Source: Candidatus Rubneribacter avistercoris (GTDB lineage Bacteria > Actinomycetota > Coriobacteriia > Coriobacteriales > Eggerthellaceae). From it: a stretch of DNA of 42,184 bases. A model generated the notes under the pieces. It was not told the origin of the DNA, did not search any database, and saw nothing but the letters and a program-made list of their open reading frames with translations. How positions within the stretch are numbered: the stretch's first letter is position 1; each line of letters opens with the position of its first letter. Location of the stretch: contig DXCU01000047.1 of NCBI GenBank assembly GCA_019115845.1, positions 1-42,184 on the forward strand. Reading direction: 5' to 3'. Shown piece after piece: positions 3,832-38,961 of the stretch. A program made the translations under genes and the position numbers.

Positions 3832-3855
3832 GGGCAAACAGACGGAGCGTGACGT

Positions 3856-6293: not shown

Positions 6294-6310
6294 CGAGCCG
6301 AGTTTCCCCC

Positions 6311-6342: not shown

Positions 6343-6376
6343 CGGCCTCTGCCGGCCCCGGTTCAACAGGGGCGCA

Positions 6377-6851: not shown

Positions 6852-6930
6852 GGGGGGTGTCAGTATCGCATACGGACGAGCGTGCGATGATCTGGGGAGA
6901 AGATGCCTGCCGTGCCGTTGTCCAAGGCCG

Positions 6931-6954
6931 CGCCCTTCGCTAACGAGCAGGGCG
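6931..6954 (+). promoter_or_regulatory. Hairpin in the 5' leader of the giant gene
   Basis: CGCCCT at 6931-6936 pairs with AGGGCG at 6949-6954, and the inner triplets tcg/cga extend the stem. It lies about 65 bases before the start codon and is followed by only three Ts. It does not match any riboswitch known to me. Confidence 0.3.
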
Positions 6955-7020
6955 TTTCAGGCGAAAACGATTGCTTGGTCCCCGCATCGTCGCTGAATGG
7001 GGAGTAGGAAGGGCGTCAAT

Positions 7021-7203
7021 ATGAACGAAGGGTGCAGTCGGAGCGGCAAGATGGGCGCCGCGTCGGATGCAGGGGGCGCGTCGGGAGCGACGCTTTCCGT
7101 CTCGCGCACGCCGTTGTGGAGGCGCTGCGTGTCGGCGGGGTTGGCGGCTCTGCTTGCCGTCACCATGATGGACGCGCGCGGAGTGCAGTACGCGCTGGCC
7201 GCC
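7021..7203 (+). other. Sec signal peptide of the giant protein
   Basis: The first 60 or so residues consist of a long polar n-region ending in WRR (33-35), a hydrophobic core around residues 38-50 and an ALA-A cleavage-like site at 58-61. The extended n-region is common in large Gram-positive surface proteins. No twin-arginine motif of the SRRxFLK type is present. Confidence 0.75.
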
Positions 7204-10200
7204 AACCAGGGCCAAAGCGAGGAAACCGCCCCGATGGCCGAAACGGACGCGGACGCATCGTCGGGCGACGAGGCTTCGCAGCCTTCCGCGGAGGCCGGTT
7301 CCGCTTCTGCGGCAAATGGCGAAGAGGCCGCCTCCTCTGCTGCCGATCCTTCGAGCGAGTCCGACCAGTCTGGCGTCTCCGACACGGAGACCCCCTCCGA
7401 AGGTGGTTCCGACGCAGGCGCCAGCGCCGTCGCCTCGGACGAAGGCGACGCCTCCAAGGGGCAGGCCGCCGACCCGTCTGCCACCCCAGCTACTTCCGAG
7501 GAGGAGTCCTTGCCGGCTCCCGACAACCTGGTCCCCGCCGATCAAGTGGAGCCTGCGCGCAACGATGGACGGGGCAACGTGGCCTCGCTTTTGGACCCGC
7601 GCGTGGACGTTTCGGGCGCGCCGCGTGCCGACGCAGGCTTCTACCAGGTGGGATCGTCGGCCGCGCATGTGGATGTGGAGCTGGGGCAGCTGCGGTCCGC
7701 GCTTGGCGACGGGCATTTGGGCGCGGCCTACGACGGCGACTGCGTGGTTGTGACGGTGGACGCCCCGTACCTGTACTTTACCGACGACGGCACGTTGAAG
7801 GAGACGCTCTCGCCTGCGGAATGGCTGCAAAACGGCGGCCAGGAGGCCGGCATGCGCGCGGCCGTGGTGGCTGACGAGGTGCCGGAAGGATGGTCGGCGT
7901 GGACGCGGTGGAGCGCCGAGGAGGGCTACCAGCGCGTGGGCGACGACGACGTGCGCTCCGGCGTGAGCGGGCGCATCGTGTTGCGTTACGACGGCGTGGA
8001 GGGTACCGGCACCGCAGGCGGCCGCCTGCGCGCGGATTCCGTCATGCCCTCGTTTGACCTGCGTTTTGCCGGCGACGTGCCCGCAGGCCGCGATGTGTCC
8101 GTGCCTGTGGGCTACATGGCGGGCTCCTTCACGGCCTCCGACGGCTCGGTGCTCACGGGCATGGCCGAAGGTTTTGCCGGCACCGTTGTGCTGCGCAACG
8201 ACGAACCCGCTGCCAAGGCCGACTTCCAGGCGGAGCGCATCGCCGCGCCTGCGGAGGGCGAGGAGGCGGGTTGGCTGGCCTACCGCGTGACCTACCATGT
8301 GCCCGAGGGCTATCCGGCAGCTTCGGGAATTGGCCTGAGCTGGTCGGACGGCTATGACCGCAGCGCGCCTGCGGCTGACGGCGATGCGGCCCTTCCGGTG
8401 CTGCTGGACGTCACGGGGCTGTCCGATCAGGACGTGGCGGCCATCGACCCATCCGATACGGCAGCGGCCGTGGCAGCGGGCGCCTCCGTGTTGGGCGCTG
8501 GCGCCGACGGGCGCTGGGCGCTTTCCGCAGAGGACGAGCGCGCCGTGGCGCCGGGGGAAACCGTCGTCCTGTACGCGGCTGTACCGTACGAGACCTCGAA
8601 AAACGCCAACGGGGGGGGGTGGCTACTTTCGTTTGCCGGTGCGGCGAAGCTGCGCCCGTATGCTCGCTATAACGTTGGCGGCGTAACCGAGTTCGCGGGT
8701 TCTTTCGAGGAGGCGGGCATCGCGCTTGCGCCCGCCGCACCATCTGACGAGGGCGGAGCGACCGGCGAGTCCGGCGAACCCGACGAGTCCGGCGGCTCCG
8801 ACAACTCCGACAAGCCCGGCGAATCTGACGACCCCGGCAACCCCGACAAGCCTGACGGCTCCAACGTCCCCGGCGACGACGCTTCGGCCGACGCCTCCGC
8901 CAACAATCCGGCTCTCGAAATCCCCGACGAATGGCAGCCCCCCGAGGGCTCCAACCGCCTGCCGGGCATGTACGCCGACCTGGACACCGCCCTCGCCGAC
9001 CGCATTTCGCTTTTGCGGGCAAGCCAGATGACCCAGGATCACTTCCAGCCTTACCTGACTCAGGACGGTGCGGAAAAGGTCAGCGACAACCTGTTCATGG
9101 TAAGAACGACGGACGCGCCGCCGACGGTTACGCTCCAAGCTGCTATGACCTCGCTTCCGGTGGGCGGCTATTTGAGCGGCGTTGAGTTTCATCTGAACAT
9201 CCCCTATCTCTACCAAAATGCCGGCGGCGCGCTGGTGGGCGTGTACACTGAGGCAGAGTGGGAGGCCAACAAAGCGAATAATCCCGCAGCCAATGCGGAT
9301 AACAAGCGCATGTACTTCACCATTGACAGCCCGGATACCTTTTTCCAATACTATCAGTTGTACAAAGATCCTGGGGACGGTACGCCCCTCACCGAAATCA
9401 CCAAAGAAACGTACAGCGATGAAAAGGGTCTGACCGGCAAGTATATTCTGAAATACGTTGGTGCGAACGGCCTCGGTCAATTCGACAACCAGTTCCAACG
9501 AGCCACCTTCAGTCTGCGTTTCGCCGGCAACATTCCCGAAAACGCGGGCGGCACCGTTCAGCTCGGAGGAACTGCGGACAGCTGCTACAACCGCGATGGA
9601 ACTCTGGTTGCCCAAGGGCCAATTAAGATTTCGCCTGATGACTCAAGCGGCACGCTGGTGCGTCAGATGTCTTTCATCGTGACCAACCTGAAATGGGAGC
9701 ATGCGGCCGAGTGCGTCCACACGCCGGTGCTGTGGGATAAGTACAACTATGCCGTGTACAAGGTCACCATCACCAACACCTCTCCGACAGAAGACAGTGT
9801 GATCGACCGTTTCGAACACTTCTTCCGGTTCCAGAACGTGACCACCGACGGGGGCTGGGGCATGCGGCCCGAGGATCTTATGGCCTGGAAGGTGGAAGAC
9901 GGCCAGATTGTTCCGAACGATAATTTCGACGCGCAGCACAACGAGCTGACTCTTGTGGGCGTTCCGGGGCAGGGCGGCGCGCTCATATACGACACCACCG
10001 CTTGGACCGACGATCAGTACAACCAGCTAGACATGGCCACGTTCGCCAACGTCAAGGACGTTGACCCCAACGCCGAGAGCATCTGCTATCAGACAGGCGG
10101 CCAGGACGGGCTGATCTCGTTCTACACCAAAGACGGCGAAGGCACCCTCATTTCGACCGAGGGCGGGGCGAAACCCGACAACAAGGACCACACCACGTTG

Positions 10201-13200
10201 TTGGTGGCGCTTCCCTACACTACGAACATCCCCCGTAACGGGCTGGGCGCGTCCGAGGCGTTCCAAAGGGCGTACTTCGAACTTGAAACTACGGTTCACT
10301 TCGGTAAATTGGGGGAGAACGACTACACGTGGACCAAGTTCTTGGAAACGTCGAATGGCTTTGACGAGCCGGATCCCGGTTTTTCGCTAGAGAAATGGGC
10401 TATCGACCGCAGCAGCGGCGACGGCAGCGAGAGTCTTTCGAATCGTGGCAAAGACCGCTTGGGATATTTGAGCGGGTATGTCATCAACAATATGCAGTCT
10501 ACTGGCAATATGCCGCTCTTCGGATCGCGGGCAAGCGGCGGAGACTTCGACTCTACCGGTGAGCTGGAACCCGGGCAGGAGAGCCATCCCGAAGGCAGCG
10601 ATATCGGTCCGGCGTTGGTGGACACCCTGCCCGGCGGCTGGGAGTTTGGCAACGTGGAGATCACGCTGCCCCAAGTTGAGGCCGAGGCGGAGGGTGAAGA
10701 AGCGCTCGGCCCGCAGCTGTCCGACTACTACTATGTGGCGGAGGGCGAAGAGCACCCCGAGGCCGCCGCGCTCCAATTCGAAGTGGAGGACAGCGCGGGA
10801 ACCCGTCAGTGGATAGGGCTTGACCTTCCTCCCACGCGCATCGAGAACGAAGAGGACGGCTCCATCAAATCTGTTACCTGGCGCTTTGGTGGCGAAGGGC
10901 GCGCCAATTCGCTGGCGGCCGAGTTAGAAGCTCGTGGCTACGGTGCCAAAGTGGGGTCGAGTGCCGGACAAAACGGCCTGTTCACCGGACGTTTCCGCTT
11001 GCTTTTCCACGAACCTGTGGGCACGACCGAAAAGATTCCGGGGCAGGTGCAGGTGAACGGCTTCATGCTGGAACCTGGCCCCGCGCACGATGCCAAGGAG
11101 TACCTCAACTCGGCGCGCTTGGAGTACGCGCAGCGTTTGTGGGTGACCGCTTCCCAAACGGCTGGCGACGGGGTGCAGTCCGGATACCAGTACTTCAACC
11201 GTGCGAGCGATCCGGCAACAGCGGTGCTGCAGCCCCTGTTGCCGCTCGCGCCCACGGTGGATGCAAAGGCGTACGCCGATGCGGATCAGGCGGCCGATCC
11301 CGATGCCACGTTGGAGGATAAGAGCAGCGTGCCGCTGGACGTGCATTCGGCGGGCTGGCGTTACTCGTTTGGCAATCCGGGTTCGTCCATGTTCGAACCT
11401 GCCCAGATCACGGTAGGCCCGCTTCCGCTGGTGGACACCGGCGAGAACAAGCTCATGTCCAGCGTGGAGGTGTCGCACCTGTCGCTTTCCCCCGGGTTGG
11501 TGGAAACACTGGGCGATTTCGCTGGTATTGACGTGACGTACCGCGTGTACGATGACAACGATGAAGAATGGAAGACGGCTACCAAGACCATCGATTCCAA
11601 TCAGATCAAGAGCTATTTCGATCAGGATGCAAACGCGTACGTGATTCCCAACTCGTATTGGGCGTGGATACCCAGCGAAGACGATCCCGACAAGGACAAT
11701 CCGTATCGCCAGCGGCTCTTGGAAACCGTGACCGTGCGCTACGATCGCGTGTACGGCAGCCAACCTGCCGAAGACATCCAGGCGTTCATCGACGTGTTCG
11801 GCACGGGTAAAGTGGTGGGCACGTATGGCGTGGAAGCGGCGTTCGAGACGCTGTATCAGCAAGAGGATTGGAACATGCGAGGTGCGGATACCTCCGTGCT
11901 GGAGGTGTTCCCCGTGGAGCCTCGCGTGAGCTCGGTTGCCTACACCGATGCGCAGGTTCCCAACCAGGATCCGCTGACCACGTCCGCCGATGCTCCGGAG
12001 AAAAATCCGCTGGAAGTGCCGCTCAGCCGTCATCAGAGCGGTTGGCGGTTCGCTATATGGAACAACAGCGCCGCGTTGATGGAGCCTGCGCTCATCACCG
12101 TGGGTCCGTTACCGCGCAACGAGTCCGGCAGCGAGCCGCGTGGTTTCGTGACGTCGCACGTGTCGCTGTCGGCCGAGCTTCTGGCATCGGGCGAGGGCGT
12201 GTCGGCGTCGTTTGCGGTGTACGATAACGCCGGGGGGACATCTACGGTCGATTTGGACTGGGACGGTCTGAAAGGCTACTTGAATTCTGAAGGAGACTTG
12301 GTGGTGCCCGCCGAGGCGTGGGGCGGCGGTTATTTGGCAAGCGCCACCGTCCGCTTCGAAACGTTCCGCGGCAATGCTCCCGCTGGCGGTATAAACGGAG
12401 GAGCCTACGTGGACGTGTTCGGCACGCCCACGTTGATGGACGTCATGCATTTGCAAGCGGAGTTCTCCACCGACTACGAGGTGGAGGAGTGGAACAAGTC
12501 CTCCACCGACAGATCCTATATCGCCACAACCACTATCAAACCCACGGTGACCTCCTCATACGGATGGAGTTGGCAGGGCGCCGAGCTGAGCGGCGCCATC
12601 CCGTATCGCTGGGGTTTCGCTGAGGGCGAACAGGCATGGGTGCAGGCGCAGCTGGCCAACCCCACCGAGGCGGAGGCCGACAAGGTGGCGCTGGATGTGT
12701 CCGCAAGCGGCATCACGGCGGATCCGCTTGCCGGTGCACGAGGGTTTCTGCCAAACGGGGTGGCGATAGAGGGGTTCCGGGACGCGGCTGATGCGCCGGC
12801 CACGGGCGAAGGCGCACTCTGCGGAGCAGACGGAGCAGCCGGTGGCAGGGCGGCCGTGCGTCACGAATCGGGCACCATCGAAGGGGTGGAGCTGTACGCG
12901 TTCGACAACCTGCCGACAGAGGACGATGCCGCCGTGCCGGTGCGCTCTTTCAACGCCGAAGCGCTGGCGAAATGGATTGACAACGGTGTGCTGACCATTC
13001 CGGACACCGAGTTCCCGCAGGATGCGCCGGTGGCGCTCGTGCGGGTGAAGTACGCCCACTTGAGTGCGCAGTCATCAATGGTTGTGCGTATGCTTGGATA
13101 TATGAACACGCACGGGGCTCCCGTGGCGGGCAGTGCGAACCATACGTACCAGAACTCCATCACCACCTCGGCGCACTTCTTCCCGGTTACGGATGCTTAC

Positions 13201-31200: not shown

Positions 31201-34200
31201 GACAACCTGCCCACCTACGTGCGCGGCGTGGGCGGCGAGGTGCTGCTGGCGGGCTACACGCTGGAGGCGGCCGGCAGCGGTGCCGATGGCATAGGCGACC
31301 TGCCGCTTGCCCGCCTGCTGTCGGACAGCCCCCAGCAAGACGGCGCCAACTCCACCATGCGGGGTCCGGCCGATGCCGCCGCCAACGCCGGCGTGTACGG
31401 CCAAGACAGCTATCCGCTGCGTTGGAACGAGCAGAATAGCCAGGATAGCAATGCGAATGGTCTGGTGCGCAGCGTGCTGGACGGCCGGCTGGTGCTGGCC
31501 TCCCGGGCAGATGACACCACCACAAACGCGTACCGCGTGGATGCGGGCGGCCTGTCCTTCGACGTGTCCGCCGGTCAAGACGAGCTGCGTATGAACGGCG
31601 GCGTGGTGCCCGATGCGAAAGGAAGCATCACCGGCGTGGTGTGGAACGACGCGGATCGCGATGGCATGCGCACCGAAGATGGGGATGACAAGCCGGTGGA
31701 CGGCCGCCGGGTGTACCTGACCCAGTGGTACCTGGGCGACAACGGCCAGTGGGTGCAGAACACCGCCTTCGGCGCAGGCGGCGACGGCGGCCCGGTCGGC
31801 AGCGTCTCGACGCTCACAGATGGCGAGGGCCGCTATTCCTTCGACAACCTGACATCCTACGTGCGGGTGGGCGCCGACGACTTCCGTCTGGCGGCGTATC
31901 GCGTGAGCGTGCTTCTGCCCGATGGCGAACTGGCCTCCGTCTGCCATGCGGGCACCGACCGCACCATCGACTCCGACCTGGCGGCTCCGGCCGAAGGGTT
32001 GAAGGTGGGCGAGCTGTTCGAAACGTTTGACGACGGCGCGGGCGCAACAACCCAGCTGCGCGAGGATGGCTTCATTATTCTGGCGCAAAAGCAGGATGCG
32101 TCTGCGGCTGTTCCGTGGTACACGGGCACGTTCAACGGCGTGACCTACGACGCGCTGGCCGGCCGCGAGCAGCAGCGCGGCGGCGACGCGGGCGTGGTGG
32201 ATGAGCCGCGGGCCACGGTGTCCGGCGTGCTGTGGTGGGATGCCAACCACGACGGTCTGTATAACTCGCAGGCCGCGGTTGGCACGGCGCCCGAGGCGGT
32301 GCTGCCTGGGCGTACGGTGCATCTCGCGGCGTGGTATCGCAACGAGGAGCAGGGCGCATGGGAGCGCTATGCGGCGGCCGACCAAGAAGCCACCAGCGGC
32401 AGCGACGGACGCTTCTCCTTTGATGTGGCGGCGTCGGCCCAGGTGGACGGCGTGCGGCGTCTGCTGGGCTACACCCTGGCGGCCGACGGGCAAACCTATT
32501 CTGACGCGGGCTCTGCGGGCGTGGGCGGTCTGCCTATCACGTCTGTGCAGGTGGATTCGCCTACGTCCGACAGCGCGAACTCCAAGGTGCGCCGACCGAA
32601 CGACACCTCGGTGGAAGCTCCGCAGACTGCGGAGGATTACGCCATCGCCTGGGCGGGCGAGGACGGTGCGGACGACCAAGGCACCGTGGACGGCCGTCGC
32701 GTGCTGGACGGGCGCGTGGTGGTGGCCGCCGCCGATAAAGACGGCATGAACGACGCCTACGAGCTTTCGGGCTACAACGTGGCCTTCGCCGAGGACGAGA
32801 ACCGCATGCACGGCGGCTTCGTGCCGGCCGAGCAGGGCAAGGTCGAGGGCCTGGTGTGGAAGGACCTTGACTACGACGGCGTCCAGGAAGACGGCGAGCC
32901 GGGCATCGGCAGCCGCCAGGTGTACCTGACCCAATGGTACCTGGGCGACGACGGCCAGTGGGTGCAGAACGCGTCCTTCGGCCTGGGCGGCAATGGCGGT
33001 CCGGCCGGCAGCGTCTCGACGCTCACAGATAGCGAGGGCCGCTACTCCTTCGAAGGCTTGGCGCCCTATGTGCAGATGAAGGACGGCGCGCCTGTGGATC
33101 AAACCGTGCGTGGCGACGACGACTTCCGCTTGGCATCCTACCGCGTGAGCGTGCAAGGGCCCGAGGGCGACGAGGTGGTCACGCGCTTCCATGCCGGGTC
33201 TGACTCTTCGAAGGACTCCGACGCGGTGGTGACCGCCGACGGCACGCCGCTGCCGCTCTATCAGCAGTACGAAGACGCGCGGGCCGACGGCGCGGTCATC
33301 GTGGCGCATCCGGTTGCCGACGGCGACGCGCCCGCCGTGTACGCAGCCGATTACGCCGGCGTGAGCTATGACCCGGTGCGGGCCGAAGAGCGCGTTTTCG
33401 GCGGCGACGCCGGGTTCACCGACCGGGAACCCGCGTTTGTGTCCGGGCGCATCTGGGACGACGCGGACCGCGACGGCGTTCAGGACGATCCGGCCGACGA
33501 GCCGGGCGTCGCGGGGCTGACGGTGACGTTGGAGCGCTGGTACTTCGATGCCGACGCGGATGAGTGGAAGATCGCACCCGCCGGTGCGTTGGAAACGACG
33601 GCGACCGGCGCCGACGGTGCCTATCGTTTCGAGGTGCCCACCACCATCACGGTTGACGGCACGGTGCGGCTCGCCGGTTACAAGGTGCGTGTGGACGGCG
33701 CCCATCTGGGCGCGCTGCCCGAGGCGTGGGGCGTGACGCAGCGCCGCGCCGGGGACGATCGCGCCCTCGATTCCGACCTGGCCGAAGCTGTGAAACCGGC
33801 GCTTTTTGGCGCGCCTGCGGCGGCGGGCGGCACCCGCTACCTCACCGACGACGGCGAGTTCATCGTGCCGGCGCAGCCTGCCGCCGATGGCTCGCAGTAC
33901 GCGGTGGCGGGGCCGGGCGGCGCGTCCTACGATGCGGCGCGCGGCTTCGAGGACGACACGTGGGACGGCGGCCTGGTGGCCGTGCCCACGGCGCGCATCG
34001 AAGGCGTGGTGTGGGACGACGCGAACAGCGACGGCCTGCGCGATGAAACCGCCGAGCACGGTGTGGACGGCCAGCAGGTGCTGCTGGAGCAGTACGTGCT
34101 CAAAAACGGCGCGTGGGAGCGCAACGATGCGTTTGGCGCAGCGGGCACGGCGGCGGTGACTGCGGCCACGAATGCCGAGGGCCGCTACGTGTTCGACAAT

Positions 34201-37200
34201 CTTCCTACGGCGTGGACGGACACGGCCACGTCGCGGTCGTACCTCGCCTCCTACAAGGTGTACGTGGGCGCGCTTGCGGGCGACCGCCTGCTCACGCGCT
34301 ATCATGCCGTGCTCGATGCGGGTCCGGCGGCCAGCGTGGGCGTGGACTCGGATGCCGACGGTGCGGATGCGGCGGGTTGGCATCCCTTGCATGACCAGGT
34401 GGTGGCCGATGACGGTTCGGTGCAAACGCGTCCGGGCGACCGCATCGTTCTTGCGGCGGCTGCGGCTGGCGCAAGCGGCGCGTTTATTGGCGAGGATCCG
34501 GCCACGAACCGCTCGTACGACCTGTTGGCCGCTGCGCACGAGGCGACGGCCGGCGGTGATGCGGGCCTGGTGGAGCTGCCTGCCGCCGAAGTGTCCGGCG
34601 TGCTGTGGTGGGATGTCAACCATGACGGCCTCTACAATGCGCAAGCCGAAGGCGACACGGCGCCCGAGGACGTGCTGTCCGGCCGCGCGGTGCGCCTGGC
34701 CGCGTGGATGCTGGACGATCAGGGCGCTTGGCAGCGCTATGCGGCTGGCGACCAAGAGGCGCTGACGGGCGGCGACGGTCGCTTCTCCTTCACGGTGGCG
34801 GCCTCGGCGGCCGATGGCAACGTGCGTCGGCTTCTGGGCTACACGCTGGCGGTGGACGGCCAGGCGTTCGATGCGGCGGGCTCTGCGGGCGTGGGCGGCC
34901 TGCCGGTGACGGCTCTGCAAGCAGATTCGCCAACTTCCGACAACGACAACTCCAAGGTGCGCCGTCCGGGCGACGCTTCGGTTGCGGCGCCGCAGAACGC
35001 GGGGGACTATGCTATAGCCTGGAACACCGGAGCCGGCGCGGACGATCCGGCGCACCGCGTGCTGGGCGGCCGTATGGTGGTGGCCGAGCGCACGCAGCCG
35101 GGCATGGTGGCCGACTACGACCGCCTGGGCTACAACCTGGCCTTCGCCCAAGACGAGAACCGCATGAACGGCGGGTTCATCCCCGCTGAAACCGGCTCCA
35201 TCGAAGGCGTGGTGTGGGAGGACGCCGACTACGACGGCGTGCAGGGAGATCCGGCACAAGAGCCGGGTATTGAGGGCCATGGTGTGTACCTGACCCAGTG
35301 GTACCTGGGCTCAGATGGCACCTGGGTGCAAAACGCAGATTTCTCCCGCACCACGACCACTGACGGGGAGGGCCGCTATGTCTTCGAGGGGCTGCCGTCC
35401 TTTGTGCGGCTGGCCGCAGACGGCTCGTTTGCCCCGGCGGGGCACGCTACCGATGACTTCCGTTTGGCCTCCTACCGGGTGAGTGTGGATGCACCTGGCG
35501 AGGGCCGCATTGTCACGCACTATCATGCGGGCGATAATCCGCAGGCGGACTCCGACGCGTTGCTGGTTGCGGGCGAGGCCACCATACCGCTCTACGAGCA
35601 GTTCGTTTCCGCCGATGGGGCGGAACGCTCAGACGGCGCGGTCATTGTGGCGCATCCGGTGGCTGCGGACGATGCGAGATCTCCGTATGGTGTGGAGTAT
35701 GCTGGCGTTATGTTCGATCTGGTCCGTGCTCAGACCAATCCTGTGTCCGGTGGCGATGCGGGCGAACATTTGGTTGCTACCACGCACATCGCGGGCGTGG
35801 TGTGGGAGGATGCTGACGGTAACGGGCTGCAAAACGAACGCTCGGAGGTGTCGGGTTCTTCGGAGGGCTATCGTCCGGAAGCTGGCATCGACGGCGTGGA
35901 CGTGGTGCTTACCCGCTATGTGCCCGATGCGGATAACGCGGATGGCGACGGCGATGGTTGGAAGGTGGACGAATCCTTCACGCCCATGGTTCAAGCAACT
36001 GGTCAGGGTGTGGATGGCTTCGGCCGCAGCTCCCACGGTGTGTACCGCTTCGACGGCCTGGATGCGTGGGGCACGGTGGACGGTGCGCCCGTGGTGTACG
36101 CCTACCGGGTGGAGCTTGCCCGTCCCGACGAGGTGAAGGCGTCGTGGCTGCTGTCGGTTCCGCGCTTGGGAGAGGATGGCACCTTCGACTCCGACCTGTT
36201 CCAAGACGGTCTTCTGGCCGAGCGCGCGGCGCAGGAGCACCTGGTGTTGCTGGGGTTGGCCGACGAGGGCACGGCGCTGGACAACCGGGTGCAAGCGCCG
36301 GCCTCGCGCGCAGACGGCGCGGCGTCGCTGGCAACGTACGACCTGGCGCGGGTGCTCTCGCGCGACCACGACGACGCCGGCCTCATGGCGCCGCCGGCAA
36401 ACGCCATAGCGGGCACGCTGTGGGTTGATGCTAATTACGACGGTGTGATAAGCGACGGCGAGGAGTTGCTGGCGGGCAAGCGCGTTGCGCTGTCCACGTG
36501 GCTTCTGGGCGAGGATGGCTGGACGAAGACAGGGGAGGCGTCCCAGCTTACAAACGGCGCGGGACGTTTCGAGTTCGGCGGGCTGGCCGCTTCGGCGCTT
36601 GACGAGGATGGCGTGCGGCGTTTAGCGGGTTACACGCTTGCGGTTGACGGGTCCCAAGGTCCCGAGGGCACGGGCGGTCTGCCGGTGACGGCGTTGCAGA
36701 CGAACTCGCCTGCGGCTGACGATCTCAACTCCAAAGTGCGCCGGCCTGGGGACGGCTCCGTCGTGCCGCCCGCGTCCGAGGAGGATAGGGCCATCGCCTG
36801 GACGGAGGCTCATGTGGCCGAGTCCGACAAGTCCGTGCTGGACGGGCGCATCGTGCTGGCGCGTCCCGCTGCGGAGGACGACGCCACGGTGAACGGCTCC
36901 TACGTGCTTGAGGGCTTCGATGTGGCCGAGGGCCGCAGCGAGCTGCGCATGAACGGCGGCTTCGGACCCTTCCCGTTTGGCGTGCTCGAAGGCGTGGTGT
37001 GGGACGATGCGAATTACGACGGAACGCAGGACCTGGCCTCTCCCGGCGAGGAGGGCTTGGAGTCCGGCATGCCCGGGCAGGCCGTGCGGGTTACCCAGTG
37101 GTATCGCGAAGGCGGGGAATGGGTGCGAAACGAGGCGTTTGGCCGCACCGCGATCACCGACGAGCGGGGCCGGTACCGCTTTGAGAATCTGGCGCCGTAC

Positions 37201-38790
37201 GTGCAGATGAAGGATGGCGCGCCGGTGGAGGAGGGCCAGTCGGGCGACGACGACTTCCGCCTGGCGGCCTACCGGGTGTCGCTTGACGGCGCGCCCGAGG
37301 GCTACGCGGCCACGCGCTACCACGTGGGCGACGACCCCACGGTGGATTCGGACGCGCTGCTTGATGCAGCTAACCGGACGCTGTCTGTGGTGGAGCGCTA
37401 TCCCGACGGCACCGAGGGCGCGCTGCGCGGCGATGGGTTCGCCGTGATGGCCGTTGCGGTTGACGGGGCTTTGAACAGCCAGTATCGCGATACGTTCGCG
37501 GGCGTGGAGTACGACGTGTTGCGCAGCGTGGCGGCTCAGCGCGGGGGCGACGCGGGCTTTGTGGCCGTGCGTTCGGCCAGCATCAGTGGTCGGGCGTGGG
37601 TGGACGCCGACGACGACGGCTTGCAGGGTCGGGACGAGGCCGGCCTGGCGGGCGTGAGGGTGAGTTTGTCGCGGTACGCGTACCGTTCGGGCGCGGCGGA
37701 TGGCGATCGTTGGGAGTTCGACGAGGCGTTCGAGGCTAAAACGGCCGTCACGGCCGAGGACGGCTCCTACGCCTTCGCCGGTTTGCCGGCCGTCGGCGCG
37801 GTTGCTGCGGACGATGGCGCGGCGGAAACGCTGGTGTACGGTTACCGCGTGGTGGTGGAAGAGTTCCCGCAGGGCTTCGACGTTTCGCGGCTTGATGCGG
37901 GCGATGCCGCGGTCGATTCCGACTTGGACGAGGCGACGGCGTGGCTGCTGCCCGATGAGCCGGTGGAGGGTCTGATCGTGCTGGCCGATGCGGCTGACGG
38001 CTCCGATCCGTCCGACATCGGGAACGGGCCCGGAGGTCGCGCGTACTCGCCGGCGGCCTCGCACGACTGCGCCTGCCTTGACGCGGGCTTCGTGCCGCAC
38101 GGTCTGACGGTCATCGAGGGTCGCGTGTGGGATGACGATAACCGCAACGGTTTGCAGGATGTGGGAGAGCAGCCGCTTGTGGGCGTGGAGGTGCGCCTGG
38201 ACCGCCGGGAGGTTGCGACGGGCGGCGATGCGGCGCCCGCCTCTGCGGCCGTCGGGTCCGCTGTCGCCGGGACTGACGAGGGTTGGGTGGACGTGGCCGG
38301 CATGCCTTCGGGCGAGGATGGCGCCTATCGCTTCGAGGAGCTTCCCGTCTGCTCGGAGACGGGCGTGCCTTACCAGTACCGCGTGCGCGCGGAGGGGCCG
38401 GAGGGCTCGCACGTCACCGAGCTTGACGCGCAGGGCAACACGCGCGACAACGAGGACAACGATTTCGCGCCGCTCGATCCCGACCGCGGGGACGCGCTCG
38501 GCGCGACTGCGGCCTTGACGCCCGGCTCGGCCCGCTTTGGAGGGGCCAACGCATTTGGGCAGTCCTTCGACCTGGTGCACGTGGCAAGCTGGACGCGCGC
38601 CGACGGCAACGCGGTGGATTTGGGGCTGTGGTTTGACGAGGGAGTGATCAAGCCTCTGCCCAAGCTGGGCGACCTGTGGGCGCGCCTGCCGTTCGCGTTG
38701 ACAGTCGCGGCGGTTGTCGCCACGGCGACGATCGCCGTGCGCCGCAGGCGCAGGCGCGGGCTGGACAAGGGCGAGCCTGTGGGTGCGTAG
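7021..38790 (+). CDS. Giant cell-surface protein (about 10,589 aa) with SdrD-B-like repeats
   Basis: One uninterrupted frame of 31.8 kb encodes a protein of about 1.1 MDa. The ATG at 7021 is preferred over 6997 because aggaaggg lies 8-9 bases upstream. Order of parts: Sec signal peptide (residues 1 to about 60, cleavage near ALA-AN); acidic Ser/Ala/Glu linker; a beta-rich-looking module present twice (about 7588-8735 and 9028-9700), separated by a Gly/Ser/Asp/Pro linker (8741-8930); at least four modules of 205-225 residues (11251-13905); a long stretch to 27465 without a family I can name, in places resembling DUF11-type surface modules; 18 SdrD-B-like domains (27466-38640); and a terminal helix with an Arg-rich tail. 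The SdrD-B family forms rigid calcium-stabilised rods in Gram-positive surface proteins. An adhesin or very long surface fibre is likely, but no ligand or enzyme domain is recognisable. The gene is flanked by xpt-pbuX and by an IS element, and appears monocistronic. Confidence 0.9.
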   Translation: MNEGCSRSGKMGAASDAGGASGATLSVSRTPLWRRCVSAGLAALLAVTMMDARGVQYALAANQGQSEETAPMAETDADASSGDEASQPSAEAGSASAANGEEAASSAADPSSESDQSGVSDTETPSEGGSDAGASAVASDEGDASKGQAADPSATPATSEEESLPAPDNLVPADQVEPARNDGRGNVASLLDPRVDVSGAPRADAGFYQVGSSAAHVDVELGQLRSALGDGHLGAAYDGDCVVVTVDAPYLYFTDDGTLKETLSPAEWLQNGGQEAGMRAAVVADEVPEGWSAWTRWSAEEGYQRVGDDDVRSGVSGRIVLRYDGVEGTGTAGGRLRADSVMPSFDLRFAGDVPAGRDVSVPVGYMAGSFTASDGSVLTGMAEGFAGTVVLRNDEPAAKADFQAERIAAPAEGEEAGWLAYRVTYHVPEGYPAASGIGLSWSDGYDRSAPAADGDAALPVLLDVTGLSDQDVAAIDPSDTAAAVAAGASVLGAGADGRWALSAEDERAVAPGETVVLYAAVPYETSKNANGGGWLLSFAGAAKLRPYARYNVGGVTEFAGSFEEAGIALAPAAPSDEGGATGESGEPDESGGSDNSDKPGESDDPGNPDKPDGSNVPGDDASADASANNPALEIPDEWQPPEGSNRLPGMYADLDTALADRISLLRASQMTQDHFQPYLTQDGAEKVSDNLFMVRTTDAPPTVTLQAAMTSLPVGGYLSGVEFHLNIPYLYQNAGGALVGVYTEAEWEANKANNPAANADNKRMYFTIDSPDTFFQYYQLYKDPGDGTPLTEITKETYSDEKGLTGKYILKYVGANGLGQFDNQFQRATFSLRFAGNIPENAGGTVQLGGTADSCYNRDGTLVAQGPIKISPDDSSGTLVRQMSFIVTNLKWEHAAECVHTPVLWDKYNYAVYKVTITNTSPTEDSVIDRFEHFFRFQNVTTDGGWGMRPEDLMAWKVEDGQIVPNDNFDAQHNELTLVGVPGQGGALIYDTTAWTDDQYNQLDMATFANVKDVDPNAESICYQTGGQDGLISFYTKDGEGTLISTEGGAKPDNKDHTTLLVALPYTTNIPRNGLGASEAFQRAYFELETTVHFGKLGENDYTWTKFLETSNGFDEPDPGFSLEKWAIDRSSGDGSESLSNRGKDRLGYLSGYVINNMQSTGNMPLFGSRASGGDFDSTGELEPGQESHPEGSDIGPALVDTLPGGWEFGNVEITLPQVEAEAEGEEALGPQLSDYYYVAEGEEHPEAAALQFEVEDSAGTRQWIGLDLPPTRIENEEDGSIKSVTWRFGGEGRANSLAAELEARGYGAKVGSSAGQNGLFTGRFRLLFHEPVGTTEKIPGQVQVNGFMLEPGPAHDAKEYLNSARLEYAQRLWVTASQTAGDGVQSGYQYFNRASDPATAVLQPLLPLAPTVDAKAYADADQAADPDATLEDKSSVPLDVHSAGWRYSFGNPGSSMFEPAQITVGPLPLVDTGENKLMSSVEVSHLSLSPGLVETLGDFAGIDVTYRVYDDNDEEWKTATKTIDSNQIKSYFDQDANAYVIPNSYWAWIPSEDDPDKDNPYRQRLLETVTVRYDRVYGSQPAEDIQAFIDVFGTGKVVGTYGVEAAFETLYQQEDWNMRGADTSVLEVFPVEPRVSSVAYTDAQVPNQDPLTTSADAPEKNPLEVPLSRHQSGWRFAIWNNSAALMEPALITVGPLPRNESGSEPRGFVTSHVSLSAELLASGEGVSASFAVYDNAGGTSTVDLDWDGLKGYLNSEGDLVVPAEAWGGGYLASATVRFETFRGNAPAGGINGGAYVDVFGTPTLMDVMHLQAEFSTDYEVEEWNKSSTDRSYIATTTIKPTVTSSYGWSWQGAELSGAIPYRWGFAEGEQAWVQAQLANPTEAEADKVALDVSASGITADPLAGARGFLPNGVAIEGFRDAADAPATGEGALCGADGAAGGRAAVRHESGTIEGVELYAFDNLPTEDDAAVPVRSFNAEALAKWIDNGVLTIPDTEFPQDAPVALVRVKYAHLSAQSSMVVRMLGYMNTHGAPVAGSANHTYQNSITTSAHFFPVTDAYGDGIECKSSATVLIGQLGTVTTAHSFKPADVRPTDGPTESTDGGSIEVAAHAENVGYRLSFQNTSYARSDESTITLDVQGIARRGAEDEDNTVRGFQTKTVEVSADILKLGANRDGSTAFEKALLFFLDPTTGEQAGEAFEMDAQAVQSALASADSFTLTVGEGVLADRAGQYLSKIELRYASIDPVTSGATLGIELTGKADWYDDHVAAQTFEQKGAFDTRIPSSQKAVLRVERPAAELHTYVQYATADDGTECEDPNYTNRGGSDDNTRTQVVVPYDRDFTMWATVQNERNVSVLDDLDVVLTMPLKYETGIKQEDGSTVDAWTGFHVTSFTVNQDILSCFPQGQVGTIRLTGYAPDADANASAVVKELRPVADPSAGWDAGDTTLNGNEVAGFADERGTFYPVENGQVTIEESAVAALGIQNLLTIELASWKNMQEDDASANSEAETQVITVHGFEDSMFGTEDTFQAQTINHLGGFRAGDKASSYEVKRTDLSGVYVSKMYFDAVNRVGYYDEDTASSGQRLTTYTQGTMDSNHARQSHGNVQPEYGEQNCALNLGYKAQGSYLVDFRQVNSLDGPEYSCYMQYGSYRDNEQREISYYNDAIKPVSYNTGLQMTINQELPSDVFDAYYVLVRAQALPFLENMDVTYADGSVMSVSGDEVRAQAKNGAADSVRMDSKGNPYFRLNLLRLEDGEHVPDYGKDSGDAYSYRDPFSAYKTDATPKGVQLVESVSYTLSINQCQYTDAINQAGDGRGNTANLPDYGTWFGDNLQYDNPDWINLMSFEVTGRFYKTCDNRQSVTTVTVRAGGDYSGNNRAGHKAVTRYDDGSGTSSHKSEWSYDNRKWGHKTTYSHVDYEGQMSHLQTISQVSVIDDGNYVRKGVNTDLAYELDVDDSVKFADDQKFYVSFYRKYTNNLVSLSGSDYNDWNYGRISFADRVVLQDTFPVCFPNDELGYYGFLSTGIGIPADSGVLSKLQSQLAKQQGAVAPELRLTTKQWQKDESAAGGYAENEGAARTIAVTTEGTFERDASGAERKLSDETIADLLGATAADGTVYVQFARPDEEPAVEIKSMVETGRKPFVIDLHENEFIAELSIELGAYAGDVDGAGETHQRYNGEADGTETDIDLHVLGRPYVYGSQENPLTGGATAVSDATNTVSAISYLNEDPDTPISSPAWNYYDNHDRSSDPAAFTGYLIPLRYRYTLHGENDVTDTPYPVVYDFNENNDTPTKTIYEARFQNVEDGTPGVDDAKRASHISHVTLTSDLDDSSRLQTVYVPQRLVPGGQGYSENWLRVVSLSFVANGKTVELSWEDLVDAGVVSSQANAKGDYEVDLEAYLRQDLKNQLDGDPDTVSQELVTTYKATTDTNSIDGYRDDPAVDVEYVKAHISSISLTFDSPNADRYDPTTMLDSGKYLANEEGGYAFSYECVLVDRTLDAFQNSSSADEGWDRLATPTFSKQVTNSYTYSSSLSDATPIRHDLSVSNVETKDPNHNTPSAVSSDPTFSYHARHRLGLLEMSMARGTKITVEGADGSPTERTLFAYDRDDRSLASPSSADPLAGEPTNIPDRNLYAGDYVEYTLTIQAGEDANLPLEQATGRFSVAAGQRIVGWEVADDSTAVGADGKTLPVTAKIGSAEGGAQGMREAPAQEDLSVAEGQEQYEHNCELVLTVGDASLNPDDAQMQQGTFVNIRVITQLTSELGDDGYDSEEGVAFQDDEPAWKGKSPTAQFMVTAAPKHGFAQYRVRDVRSARYPSKQMDALRGTSTSYNTSYGTDDGSSSTHFYREITQDARLDGQEQLGIRATSALTFYTHNNSRSYGARIAAEWLEVDPNAGSSATVEKNPADTDGNPMKLTVSDLKNPTYHVEDMTVTVLFTKDHDEKGNPVGVPIFELTDTPKLASSVGSADGPKDVGYPEGIVKSEAGPDPDNPGRPDVKVEYYEPSQGAWLEYDALETLMKQQGPAETDHVVNDSVLRTATGVRWTYYDVPARAEGDAGEFLLDDVALIGVGRYHDVRLDEGTVASKEQATSWGFDQYLDVSFTHRHNESEPLFSKGSVEVEAAPALHGTWLTKQDDYNDYVRVTVSRRTPVMQFHNQVFQTQEQAVAGYDAEADQKLGYIPGETFWYKDTLRNVKEGTNPGVSDLQGELYNPVFYERIPADYLKQALGIDAGANVTADYLKEQIKQHLRWTDRDGNNVTTARTTDVGMELSVELVDESEAPDYGGAMTYASTSEVSTPAGGKPFADLNPTDSGVSENTTFYLFKISWEPAAGTEGGNLADATDLAPVDRVKAGNTRMEIGDTIELWFPVQAALDGLPQVYTDLDQAALSSGTTGAEPAYFPRLGEYAANSYYYSSNHSADPLGGPQFTSSTVSSYGMTKVNNGDVLMDLDSLLHESGFTGDRPDDTDLWETFDGSLTYLPGEINDTDDSFLDKDMRTLNNCQTARYSPQRPSDATTESWPEAKRYTRTDTSSSSTHTRYALSFDKLCLTPRIGALLENETEVPVVWSQTRVHLQKAWIATASEFVVKGDDPAMDNGSAPNYDSARVYDSGRDPHRSYTGTFEWQTSYQGVLWGQHTTALQYNQDFTARLQALNYGDRTLDGVEFTYVLPRGVEPVFADDGSTVEVDAQVLAQAVSAASPGADPYAEETWNDISDDLVKVEVVQRPDGDYEGYDAPSAVQDPAAYRDGKALKANTEDLSADLSMSSYEAEAAAAGDVESYRDSPQPWVLKITVEQPLGKWFYRAQDGSEVNTSDPDDYADGGYKINVDVPVHVFANNANGEWSDRVLVRPVDTSRSEGMGSRSSAYYQVFDIDHWEGATAQADKAHNVQPYGMDWRWASWYGTGYKQLYGSPNMPAVNGKTVQNNTVSADDLSVKVANTSAIAWGKAYKDAGSEAPLYAQTGTTAVQREPLVRVWNTLGENGVSGSVADYYLMQEADHRQLNVHMENRYWWNDIQKTSYQNHYHNYATDGGARGDLVLPVVTTVLPQGIAPVDRDTGLPYSPSPDVEQDFDQADWGVSYTDGATANEPDANAEDMRPGFRATVTYEKVTMTDTDGDTAASDGEEYRYVVRFLPQGDDLDAPDGAVGAGNSEQRIKSDGAGLFSFDIVTYEEPVREEGDPEQVENSYENVRSYVSSAMGGYRFISDTDIGGNPYLVGAEKQSSGDLRLDARASKDYPTAPVPSNCMADEGTREEVPFNWLPGFSGTYAEMGDMRNTTANEEGDVSLGDVVEREGLPLLVEDYAFRPAWSLTEESTQALDGDDAAVYQDAFSNRAAGSADQIPDAGSYAALKLRTSYPSFTSSYEVEADPVRPLDGADPSATGTTNTGDGAKGDLAGGDGEVLDADGGKTGEADQSWQYGDEPWYALTVKNNLADEENLGSSGALAHGKLVFSFHLPEQVTFYNKATLDSNNYADYEDDDYQFFVERTYTPRGQTDQVTETLTPKQLRAAGWTVNVTAQPDYGANNYSDPDYAKPDYDDPDDAGAGSTAKPKSHEGEVLVVELAPPDDATDAEFDGSNSMLEAYWKDGIRPDGYFGMGDVITLKVRTVIDNLGDEESAAEGMPETYREQLENIRTWDGEGSQAYVTTHDRTLGWTDEWTHTYSDNYTGDEGAAGETKTKPKLPADPDFPVKDFSDQTPDRFTFDNRVEDAPGYLDEGDPSNPDDDVQVPDTDYDADGELDDIYTAAAAGWFKVAKPSASIRADTLDQRSLVSDPDFGVVLGDDAHERGSTTMMVTQAINTGGAVNSFIVDWQVPYWATGQGSVLDAPFGNSSMAIGRTQPGVERVSTGVWEIGGTEYTQEEKESIEQQLRVYVLVRQASTSYTDSANGYEEQNGPSYQDKENFALAGTSKDRDYYKAGEWKLVGDPNGYVVSDKQNVEIPLSTERGKDVRQVRWIITAGSLDDTNAGRACPVPQGLRLAVDAAVDDDASDETREFTFGSQEPDDVDPQRANVGWTPLKNPDGTSYQRDKYGVVRIEAQTPMPKGITSNAAAVVCNTLVMETPRIPEGAAATSAAELPTYVAVDDDDLAEAEAASEVALAAGESAAVMEAANGGGAFVASTDEGLEAARAAGLTVLDVGDGDAGGTETDDAESIVPTSIVHLNHFASATPRYDDTKYLRSDDARARAGFYRDPEYPYLAFDMHQSYFEGGGLSGYAWSNFSTRPTIDPRASRMMRYQLTLSNLSNKQLEALGLYDERHGEDYCSNPQLSVILPFIEAFGAAEGLTPDDFEFVSYDNYTSEDCPLNPAYTSSPTIEKKPVLDDEGKPTYDDNGEQVFEEVTRPAANLDDATPLWTYYVAETEMSESSAGDYSFAPGAYQEQSNGGLGMPEPYVGGDLLVADKLGSADSQVNRKFMSWHFAGTEDSGNQNLGRLEAGSTLVVEFMMPIREDANGAIVKELLTASGYGYKQGNFNGYVPAVQTGESKIGITRDTRDVNLDGINNQKMIMKQMESMGFASNNTTLQTKYASSQVNTLFTIGSSNVNGPVAVPEGTSYTYLNSIDNVGANETSALGFVRSAMLDILPYEGDKYASSPGEGNEGVPRNSQWNGWLDDLDSIKMTRAVPDGLLGDRVDQELGESECSIWVGPFKREGGALVPQTEAELPELYRLSGDADRLKWMNALYYDVRDNKGAGMADLGFVSLSEFKQYCADHPAEAEKLKKAIRALWGQVLNDDVFIYPLGTIRLTYDLRAPLNLPKYLGNLSGDPVFDMDAEANPGRAEQLADTMQKNTFASRVNSGRSATDDENTSVTEYASAGAFVDAPAERGYIGDYVWLDPDWDRLQNDTDGELTQDGLGRETTYHLADNGRWLLSTDKSIDPDTGVWEGLHGNGSRTADLFRDLDYDGEAEDPGINGVKVELLNAYGQPVNRDGQASSLVNDPALTDGKDQWVVCDPETGEPIINQNGGYDLAEAGAPYSYVTESDYYDNKGYYILSNLAPGEYRLRFTFPKEYAGYTLSTRSIGPDDDGDGVADTAMTIEHRADDLATADVDETALVATSDVIQVDAVAFDEEALKAGQPDQVHAAYDARMTSYDVGIAMPATYEGVVYRDDLLADGSPEGDKGEDAIDGVLDYYGTGIDDTLGSGTAAEEKRLARMTVTVHDYDPVTGEVSDGPALDADGKPAVQETEADGAFSFSLQTGRHYVVTCEDEYGTQLLKPTLYVRSNDPLEFPVRPGATGADGVWDNDLQLKEGRGITRAFEAVVPVDTDGKAVYEQDGEAWTGLAHYRKLALGWIDGTKGYLGNFVWEDKDYDGVQDMDEPGVPGVKVTLETYWWNPDKDGGAGWEQLVDPATKKPVLQTQTTSASGLYLFRDVPTYVADPLGAQPDLDEDQKDKYLAGYRLRIAEGDLANLTTDWGVTLRNVDVGEENDSDLSTAPVADTADGESYWMNEEGLASGSDDDLAFDQMIVIAGEADNQTVDANTCEIKLPDGSTSTYDLANAQRIEKWDAGLVAVPTASVTGRVWHDADYDGLQKRDELGNWDASEPGLAGQQVTLTQWYYDGSAWQQNTAFGADRWTKGIVTGGSAATGTVTVSTDAEGRYVFDNLPVAYTTDDGQHYLAAYRVTLDDVNHDADGEPWLLTRYHQGEDEASISLDSDVATLGQPLVVTDRYAAGAAGTDEGARALDGLIILADKVADAGTAHPLVDDQASQVAVAANDSFDGQAAVYDWLTCVADENGQVRGGDVGELPAPRPSISGFVWLDADNDGIRDAEEMQAAAGAGADDLPNGVEVTLERYVPDGNGSWMKDPGWTDLTARTATQQPVASAIVPTGDDADTGGADSDVAGGSDAGGAAGDSSAGGDADAGSNADAATEQPGVFVFENLLASKSDGANGRVPYAYRVRVSDARYADGNLMMAKYQEGDSYQVDSDLRFEDGFLMAADAAGAAVEYDVLLDVADDQSFGANVMRDQPVSGNPNYQETNPGTQDAATLIYDAAKASDRASNDAGVIVPPKHTVAGRLWQDADNDGLIDEGEEGLSGKKVTLKQWKRAADGTWSAAGVDLTATTQTDGSFSFDNLPTYVRGVGGEVLLAGYTLEAAGSGADGIGDLPLARLLSDSPQQDGANSTMRGPADAAANAGVYGQDSYPLRWNEQNSQDSNANGLVRSVLDGRLVLASRADDTTTNAYRVDAGGLSFDVSAGQDELRMNGGVVPDAKGSITGVVWNDADRDGMRTEDGDDKPVDGRRVYLTQWYLGDNGQWVQNTAFGAGGDGGPVGSVSTLTDGEGRYSFDNLTSYVRVGADDFRLAAYRVSVLLPDGELASVCHAGTDRTIDSDLAAPAEGLKVGELFETFDDGAGATTQLREDGFIILAQKQDASAAVPWYTGTFNGVTYDALAGREQQRGGDAGVVDEPRATVSGVLWWDANHDGLYNSQAAVGTAPEAVLPGRTVHLAAWYRNEEQGAWERYAAADQEATSGSDGRFSFDVAASAQVDGVRRLLGYTLAADGQTYSDAGSAGVGGLPITSVQVDSPTSDSANSKVRRPNDTSVEAPQTAEDYAIAWAGEDGADDQGTVDGRRVLDGRVVVAAADKDGMNDAYELSGYNVAFAEDENRMHGGFVPAEQGKVEGLVWKDLDYDGVQEDGEPGIGSRQVYLTQWYLGDDGQWVQNASFGLGGNGGPAGSVSTLTDSEGRYSFEGLAPYVQMKDGAPVDQTVRGDDDFRLASYRVSVQGPEGDEVVTRFHAGSDSSKDSDAVVTADGTPLPLYQQYEDARADGAVIVAHPVADGDAPAVYAADYAGVSYDPVRAEERVFGGDAGFTDREPAFVSGRIWDDADRDGVQDDPADEPGVAGLTVTLERWYFDADADEWKIAPAGALETTATGADGAYRFEVPTTITVDGTVRLAGYKVRVDGAHLGALPEAWGVTQRRAGDDRALDSDLAEAVKPALFGAPAAAGGTRYLTDDGEFIVPAQPAADGSQYAVAGPGGASYDAARGFEDDTWDGGLVAVPTARIEGVVWDDANSDGLRDETAEHGVDGQQVLLEQYVLKNGAWERNDAFGAAGTAAVTAATNAEGRYVFDNLPTAWTDTATSRSYLASYKVYVGALAGDRLLTRYHAVLDAGPAASVGVDSDADGADAAGWHPLHDQVVADDGSVQTRPGDRIVLAAAAAGASGAFIGEDPATNRSYDLLAAAHEATAGGDAGLVELPAAEVSGVLWWDVNHDGLYNAQAEGDTAPEDVLSGRAVRLAAWMLDDQGAWQRYAAGDQEALTGGDGRFSFTVAASAADGNVRRLLGYTLAVDGQAFDAAGSAGVGGLPVTALQADSPTSDNDNSKVRRPGDASVAAPQNAGDYAIAWNTGAGADDPAHRVLGGRMVVAERTQPGMVADYDRLGYNLAFAQDENRMNGGFIPAETGSIEGVVWEDADYDGVQGDPAQEPGIEGHGVYLTQWYLGSDGTWVQNADFSRTTTTDGEGRYVFEGLPSFVRLAADGSFAPAGHATDDFRLASYRVSVDAPGEGRIVTHYHAGDNPQADSDALLVAGEATIPLYEQFVSADGAERSDGAVIVAHPVAADDARSPYGVEYAGVMFDLVRAQTNPVSGGDAGEHLVATTHIAGVVWEDADGNGLQNERSEVSGSSEGYRPEAGIDGVDVVLTRYVPDADNADGDGDGWKVDESFTPMVQATGQGVDGFGRSSHGVYRFDGLDAWGTVDGAPVVYAYRVELARPDEVKASWLLSVPRLGEDGTFDSDLFQDGLLAERAAQEHLVLLGLADEGTALDNRVQAPASRADGAASLATYDLARVLSRDHDDAGLMAPPANAIAGTLWVDANYDGVISDGEELLAGKRVALSTWLLGEDGWTKTGEASQLTNGAGRFEFGGLAASALDEDGVRRLAGYTLAVDGSQGPEGTGGLPVTALQTNSPAADDLNSKVRRPGDGSVVPPASEEDRAIAWTEAHVAESDKSVLDGRIVLARPAAEDDATVNGSYVLEGFDVAEGRSELRMNGGFGPFPFGVLEGVVWDDANYDGTQDLASPGEEGLESGMPGQAVRVTQWYREGGEWVRNEAFGRTAITDERGRYRFENLAPYVQMKDGAPVEEGQSGDDDFRLAAYRVSLDGAPEGYAATRYHVGDDPTVDSDALLDAANRTLSVVERYPDGTEGALRGDGFAVMAVAVDGALNSQYRDTFAGVEYDVLRSVAAQRGGDAGFVAVRSASISGRAWVDADDDGLQGRDEAGLAGVRVSLSRYAYRSGAADGDRWEFDEAFEAKTAVTAEDGSYAFAGLPAVGAVAADDGAAETLVYGYRVVVEEFPQGFDVSRLDAGDAAVDSDLDEATAWLLPDEPVEGLIVLADAADGSDPSDIGNGPGGRAYSPAASHDCACLDAGFVPHGLTVIEGRVWDDDNRNGLQDVGEQPLVGVEVRLDRREVATGGDAAPASAAVGSAVAGTDEGWVDVAGMPSGEDGAYRFEELPVCSETGVPYQYRVRAEGPEGSHVTELDAQGNTRDNEDNDFAPLDPDRGDALGATAALTPGSARFGGANAFGQSFDLVHVASWTRADGNAVDLGLWFDEGVIKPLPKLGDLWARLPFALTVAAVVATATIAVRRRRRRGLDKGEPVGA
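7204..7587 (+). repeat. Acidic Ser/Ala/Glu-rich linker
   Basis: This segment just after the signal peptide is dominated by Ala, Ser, Glu, Asp and Gly with almost no hydrophobic residues. It is expected to be disordered and to act as a spacer. A second linker of this kind (8741-8930) uses short Gly-Glu-Ser/Asp-Asn-Pro-Asp-Lys-Pro units. Confidence 0.65.
7588..9700 (+). repeat. Duplicated N-terminal module (N1 and N2)
   Basis: Two modules share an ordered set of features: a PYLY segment followed by an AEW motif (N1 APYLYF...PAEW near 7761-7825; N2 IPYLYQ...EAEW near 9200-9270), then an L(R/K)Y(D/V)G motif, then (D/S)LRFAG(D/N)(V/I)P (N1 near 8060, N2 near 9510). They have diverged well beyond recent duplication. 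N2 visibly uses more A/T-ending codons than N1. Confidence 0.65.
11251..13905 (+). repeat. Four tandem modules of about 205-225 residues
   Basis: Modules begin near 11251, 11920, 12541 and 13252. The first two are clearly alike: each opens with a short proline-valine segment, has SGWR, (I)TVGPLP, a SHVSLS/SHLSLS strand, a YDN/YDD motif and a dVFGT motif about 40 residues before its end. The third and fourth keep the spacing and several strands but have diverged. The domain family is not known to me; composition suggests beta-sandwich modules. Confidence 0.6.
31018..32211 (+). repeat. Class A-B domain pair (domains 6-7)
   Basis: Domain 6 is class A: it has a GYTLEAAG segment, then GGxxDLPLA...DSPQQDGANSTMR and ends LRMNGG. 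Domain 7 is class B: it has the strand YLTQWYLGDNGQWVQN, then a DDFRLAAYRVSV segment. The same A-then-B order recurs at 32212, 34585 and 36400. Confidence 0.7.
32212..33990 (+). repeat. Class A-B-C domain triad (domains 8-10)
   Basis: Domain 8 (32212) is class A, marked by LWWDANHDGLYN, RRLLGYTLAADG, NSKVRRPND and ENRMHGGF. Domain 9 (32836) is class B, marked by YLTQWYLGDDGQWVQN and APYVQMKDGAPV. Domain 10 (33433) is class C, marked by VTLERWYFDADADEWK. This is the first complete triad in the array. Confidence 0.7.
34585..36399 (+). repeat. Class A-B-C domain triad (domains 12-14)
   Basis: Domain 12 (34585) matches domain 8 closely (LWWDVNHDGLYN, RRLLGYTLAVDGQ, NSKVRRPGD). Domain 13 (35194) matches domains 7 and 9 (YLTQWYLGSDGTWVQN). 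Domain 14 (35782) is class C (VVLTRYVPDADN) and resembles domain 5. A single class D domain (33991) separates this triad from the previous one. Confidence 0.7.
36400..38106 (+). repeat. Class A-B-C domain triad (domains 15-17)
   Basis: Domain 15 (36400) is class A (LLAGKRVALSTW, RRLAGYTLAVDG, NSKVRRPGDGS). Domain 16 (36979) is class B and shares APYVQMKDGAPV and DDDFRLA(A/S)YRVS with domain 9. Domain 17 (37576) is class C (VRVSLSRYAYRSG). This triad is more diverged from the other two than they are from each other. Confidence 0.65.
38656..38787 (+). other. C-terminal membrane anchor with degenerate sortase-like motif
   Basis: LPKLG at 38656-38670 is followed by Asp, a hydrophobic helix of about 18 residues (38689-38742) and a run of six Arg, then a short polar tail. 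The layout is that of an LPxTG cell-wall sorting signal (LPKTGD is a common form), but the Thr that sortase cleaves after is replaced by Leu. Either a variant sortase is used or the protein stays membrane-anchored. Confidence 0.7.
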
Positions 38791-38843: not shown

Positions 38844-38879
38844 AAAAGCCGAGACCTCGCATCTGGGGTCTCGGCTTTT
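38844..38879. terminator. Intrinsic terminator inside the left IS end
   Basis: AAAAGCCGAGACC at 38844-38856 is the exact complement of GGTCTCGGCTTTT at 38867-38879, with a 10-base loop. The A-run before and T-run after make it a bidirectional terminator. It would stop transcripts of the giant gene entering the element and protect the transposase from read-through. Confidence 0.85.
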
Positions 38880-38961
38880 CGGCTTTTGCGAGGCGCTCAA
38901 TGAAGGAGAAAGATGGGCAAAAGAGACGATGAAAGTTCTCGGGGTTGGTGAAAAACATAGC

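Follow-up and report, generated by a model that had tools for sequence, protein, structure and literature searches.

What could a single bacterial gene of more than ten thousand codons be for, and is its product made all the time? The gene lies in a window of 42,184 nucleotides (the whole stretch of DNA analysed), which is an entire contig of the 3.2-Mb genome, 99.6% complete, of the gut-type bacterium Candidatus Rubneribacter avistercoris. Positions 7021-38790 of its forward strand, which also carries the other features of the gene given below, form one open gene, from an ATG at 7021 to a TAG ending at 38790; its 10,590 codons, one stop included, specify 10,589 aa with a mass of 1.134 MDa and a pI of 4.2. 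The mechanical call of the frame begins at 6997, but we prefer 7021 as the start because a Shine-Dalgarno-like AGGAAGG (7006-7012) stands 8 nt upstream of it, in agreement with the ribosome binding site claimed in an earlier reading of the sequence alone (hereafter the sequence-only reading). A likely intrinsic terminator, AAAAGCCGAGACC...GGTCTCGGCTTTT (38844-38885), places its stem just after the stop. The sequence-only reading had also taken the frame for a single maintained gene, and here several kinds of evidence agree. GC content at the three codon positions is 0.66/0.47/0.77, with one frame held throughout; comparison with the closest homologue puts dN at 0.32 and dS at 1.08, the differences being mostly at third positions, and by this measure the gene is under purifying selection; and colinear homologues exist in several genera. 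High GC does yield long spurious frames, such as an antisense frame of 2,067 aa in this window, yet that frame is the second-longest of the window, so chance is no explanation for the giant one. With a dN that stays well under dS over the whole gene, third-position bias and colinear relatives against it, the notion of a high-GC artefact that yields no single translated protein is already refuted, on these comparative data, and retains a negligible probability.

The gene seems to stand alone, no neighbour suggesting a function. Upstream are a flavocytochrome-c-like oxidoreductase, a c-type cytochrome, an EamA-type transporter, a xanthine phosphoribosyltransferase and a xanthine permease; downstream come an IS1182-family transposase (39018-40595), just after the giant gene, and then NuoI- and NuoD-like proteins on the other strand. 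A repeated element of about 390 bp, MITE- or REP-like, occupies 6240-6630 and has dozens of copies in the genome at 73-89% identity. Its 42-bp inverted arms (6370-6411 and 6513-6554) were considered as an invertible promoter, a proposal that we rejected because they belong to this multicopy element.

The protein begins and ends like one destined for the cell wall. Its signal-peptide-like segment (aa 28-61; 7102-7203), Arg-rich and hydrophobic, reads SRTPLWRRCVSAGLAALLAVTMMD... and matches the conserved homologue counterpart SFRTKPWVRALSVVLSVLLAVTMFD...; the signal peptide of the sequence-only reading corresponds to this putative one, recognised by eye and by its conservation in the family. At the other end, aa 10546-10589 (38656-38787) combine LPKLGD, a hydrophobic stretch and the Arg-rich tail RRRRRR. 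The C-terminal anchor claimed earlier is therefore present in a sorting-signal-like form, albeit with a motif that is non-canonical for LPxTG: at the equivalent site homologues have LPTTGD, LPTLGD, LPKTGD, LPQTGD, LAQTGD or LPQTSD, with LPxTGD in the majority of homologues. Four loci in the same genome match the sortase family PF04203 above cut-off.

Between these ends, the N-terminal part was accessible to structure prediction, with an AlphaFold2 model of aa 185-1384 built from 28 sequences at pLDDT 79. It predicts a first module of beta-sandwich domains (aa 185-566; 7573-8718), a disordered, acidic, low-complexity linker with short tandem repeats and pLDDT below 50 (aa 567-666; 8719-9018), and a second module of two beta-sandwich domains (aa 666-1117; 9016-10371). 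In VIA-align comparisons the first domain of module 1 resembles the pilin domains of BcpA and EbpC (Z 8.3-8.6), and the second domain of module 2 resembles the MSCRAMM N3 domain of ClfA, SdrG and SdrD (Z 8.0-8.9, rmsd about 3.3-4.1). These Z values of 8-9 are middling, and the tool warns of a possibly common arrangement; on the predicted model the likeness is one of fold and not of family membership. Sequence searches of the N-terminus against Pfam, NCBIfam and PDB gave no useful match. Nor did they recover an N2-N3 ligand-binding pair, and by fold one domain aligns to N3. Integrin alpha chains topped the list of fold relatives, but their TM was 0.1 and their rmsd 8-33 A across several beta-sandwich domains, and we discarded them as a chain-of-domains effect.

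The remainder of the protein falls into three zones. Four diverged repeats of about 220 aa (aa 1399-2290; 11215-13890; hhalign E 1e-35 to 1e-5) are followed by a core (aa 2291-7083; 13891-28269) that contains the best conserved part of the protein. When slices of this core were compared with chunks of the protein, no internal repeat appeared up to aa ~6800. A PDB sequence search with these roughly 5,000 residues gave no match, and an AlphaFold2 model of one stretch (aa 4195-5394) reached pLDDT 38 and was set aside. Neither Pfam nor NCBIfam gave a match from aa 1 to ~6970; at aa 6970 a weak SdrD_B match begins, the first in the protein. The third zone, recognised from domain matches and a repeat count, consists of 17 SdrD_B-type repeats (aa 7085-10471; 28273-38433) spaced at about 205 aa, which carry W-x-D-x-[DN]-x-[DN]-G loops and exceed the PF17210 cut-off at several places. 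The NCBIfam model MSCRAMM_SdrD, whose cut-off is 2500, scored 11-24 bits, so the whole-protein SdrC/SdrD model does not describe the giant. The description of the first 20 kb as mostly non-repetitive is accurate except for the four diverged repeats, and that of long stretches as belonging to no nameable family applies to aa 1-6970, the rest being SdrD_B. Likewise, the separation of this giant from repeat adhesins suits its first two thirds, which are mostly devoid of families, and fails for its C-terminal third, whose SdrD_B stalk makes it partly a repeat adhesin after all.

How widespread is such a protein? The sequence-only reading had proposed an orthologue search across Eggerthellaceae with a comparison of lengths. 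Of 138 genomes of the family, 18 have homologues of aa 6001-6800, and among its better genomes these fall in 5 of 48 genera. A more sensitive profile run on 398 genomes of the class, with 153 genera, led back to those 5 and gave no match outside Eggerthellaceae, and an N-terminal profile added a single partial match, in a sixth genus; to judge from these profiles, the giants are restricted to one lineage. In the genera examined, colinear homologues align over 7,900-9,400 residues at 39-62% identity. Identity is about 35-55% in the core in most homologues, against about 27-35% in the N-terminus, and the SdrD_B-type repeats number 8 to 35. Inside long contigs the homologous open frames, several per genome, span 9,363 to 34,927 codons from stop to stop, shorter ones sitting at contig ends. 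The protein in the window, which could have passed for a lone case, is thus among the smaller members of its family. The two largest frames, of 30,639 codons (G152:C1) and 34,927 codons (G151:C39; 104.8 kb without any N), were checked in full, and both terminate in LPQTSD followed by a hydrophobic stretch and an Arg-rich tail. Genome G151 holds three giant frames that sum to 87,564 codons, about 9% of its 2.8 Mb, and G152 holds two, about 7% of the genome. Residues 124-1635, 2289-7422 and 7430-10541 of the window protein match successive stretches of the larger giants, which therefore share one colinear skeleton; most of their extra length falls in the C-terminal repeat zone and in the stretch that corresponds to aa 1635-2289, and by colinearity the zone of ~220-aa repeats is much longer in relatives of 30,000-35,000 aa. 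Because assemblies may break at poly-G or at repeats, the number of giant genes is probably underestimated. In Enterorhabdus sp. P55 (G006), one giant gene is apparently split near the N-terminal linker between contigs C73 and C237.

The sole homopolymer of at least seven bases in the giant gene is a run of nine Gs at 8611-8619, and it is in frame. Loss of one base there brings a stop at aa 554, and gain of one base a stop at aa 550. The tract encodes part of an insert, SKNANGGGW, which falls in a low-confidence loop of the AlphaFold2 model and which homologues outside the genus do without. When the codons of the gene were shuffled, only 4 of 2000 versions had a run of nine or more Gs within the first 1.7 kb, which speaks for a switch. 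A G9 arose anywhere in 82 of 2000, and we therefore dropped the argument that a poly-G in the giant gene is rare by itself as too weak. The genome also contains, mostly outside or upstream of genes, about 56 runs of nine or more Gs, and a single one in the giant gene is not improbable on its own.

The family offers a stronger comparison. Across 33 genes totalling 785 kb, 18 tracts of G8 or longer lie within -700 to +1700 of the frame start, and the other 706 kb of coding sequence have none (the binomial p of about 1e-18 is inflated because orthologues are not independent). Antisense C8 runs have no such bias (0 near the start, 3 far from it). The window gene, G149:C2 and G088:C1 (183k; Adlercreutzia faecimuris JBNU-10) are in frame at the tract, as G042:C7 probably is, and G002:C45, G151:C39, G045:C18, G045:C7 and G045:C1 are out of frame exactly there, these three ON, one probable ON and five OFF genes being homologues and paralogues and not strains of one species. 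In G002:C45, from the same genus as the window and with its tract at the equivalent place, and in G151:C39, the signal peptide is in a different frame from the rest, with the change at the tract; in the three G045 genes, a start codon with a Shine-Dalgarno-like sequence runs into the tract out of frame. Some other family genes have the tract in the leader. Homopolymers near the 5' end act as switches as a general principle (PMC2831843), and two hallmarks of a contingency locus are found here: a 5' homopolymer whose change by one unit breaks the frame (the G9 at 8611), and ON and OFF states among related alleles.

We regard a sortase-anchored giant adhesin or surface fibre, subject to ON/OFF phase variation through poly-G, as the probable explanation. 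At the far tip would sit the adhesin- or pilin-like beta-sandwich modules, on a long stalk made of the conserved core together with the 17 SdrD_B-type repeats, and the C-terminus would be tethered to the cell wall through the LPxTG-like signal. Replication slippage in the 5' tract would toggle expression: nine Gs, as in the window, keep the frame open, and one G gained or lost would end translation at about aa 550, before the stalk and anchor. A clone would then contain both cells that bear the fibre and cells that lack it. The sequences show the open gene and its conservation, the order of the domains, the 5' placement of tracts across the family and the two frame states among its members; that the protein is displayed on the surface, binds a ligand and is switched reversibly in live cells is what we infer. 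The sequence-only reading had foreseen a very costly surface structure; a surface giant is supported, but the tract makes the gene look like an ON/OFF contingency locus, and production is probably intermittent.

Two other accounts deserve attention. The protein might be a giant repeat adhesin or stalk made constitutively, the tract being a neutral accident and the out-of-frame relatives products of sequencing or assembly errors. The length of the window's G9 rests on one assembly of one strain, and tract lengths of G9-G13 in assemblies can be wrong (PMC9187656). That homopolymer errors are common, that these genomes have many runs of nine or more Gs, that 18 of the 33 genes have no G8+ tract near the start and that the window copy is in frame would all fit such an account. 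It does not explain why tracts are biased 18 to 0 toward the 5' end, nor why this one encodes an insert dispensable in homologues; in five relatives, with genes of 30-105 kb, the tract is the sole place where the frame breaks, whereas errors should hit other runs too. We find it unlikely. Alternatively, the giant could be mainly a structural surface layer or filament, or a spacer with enzymes in its core, rather than an adhesin, which is compatible with the poly-G switch. The family-less core, and its better conservation than that of the N-terminus, unusual for a passive stalk, speak for this possibility; the predicted resemblance of the N-terminal modules to adhesin and pilin domains, the SdrD_B stalk and the lack of any catalytic family found anywhere in the protein speak against it, and on balance it appears rather doubtful.

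The probable phase-variable fibre has partial counterparts among known systems. Record proteins of Chlorobium and Omnitrophota (~36,800 and ~85,800 aa) share its extreme length in unrelated lineages, and the 34,927-codon frame would be among the largest known proteins. The Sdr proteins of Staphylococcus (SdrC, SdrD) have SdrD_B repeats (PF17210), a cell-wall anchor and an N-terminal MSCRAMM-like fold, which in the giant comes from a predicted model; the giant differs in being several times longer and in its core of ~5,000 aa without a family, its variant anchor motif and its poly-G switch, and we noticed no long Ser-Asp repeat region. Bifidobacterium breve, a direct precedent for the switch, belongs to the same phylum as the giant's host. 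In its strain UCC2003, intragenic G-tracts of about 10-12, similar to those of the giant family, join or separate the signal-peptide and LPXTG parts of sortase pili (Bbr_0113, Bbr_1889), more than one locus per genome is present, as in the giant family, and the ON form is enriched in mice (PMC9187656). These pili, in contrast, come from a pilin operon that includes a sortase, their protein is of normal size, and their switching was shown experimentally, whereas we infer that of the giants from sequences. Apilactobacillus kunkeei, from another phylum, has several very large extracellular proteins per genome, Giant1-5, that make up 6% of the genome; they differ from our family in their 3,000-8,000 aa and beta-solenoid N-terminus, and the abstract on them mentions no phase switch (PMC12863079).

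Switching of this kind may extend beyond the giants. In the genome of the window, a BspA/DUF285 leucine-rich-repeat protein with a G10 just after its start (L161, G000:C43:53323-57332) and an M6-peptidase-like protein with a G9 just after its signal peptide (L163, G000:C44:14931-18939) are likely to be two further phase-variable surface genes. The genus-mate G002 has 610 overlapping matches to G9 or longer. A genome-wide repertoire of poly-G switches is likely on such grounds.

Our literature searches found nothing relevant on the giant family, on homopolymer phase variation in Eggerthella or on SdrD in Eggerthella. The parts are of known kinds, an anchored repeat adhesin and a poly-G switch; the scale, the family-less core and the combination, absent from the literature searched, appear to be new. 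These may well be the largest known phase-variable genes, a claim that we hold with as much reserve as conviction: single-base slips would toggle fibres on the cell wall that range from 1 to nearly 4 MDa, encoded by up to about 9% of a genome, with a conserved core of ~5,000 aa and lengthened by repeat expansion in two zones. To the question of what giant bacterial proteins cost the cell, an ON/OFF contingency switch would be a testable answer, and the graded series from 9,363 to 34,927 codons on one colinear skeleton opens the growth of giant proteins to study. The family, for which we found no describing paper, is likely to provide major, variable surface antigens of Eggerthellaceae.
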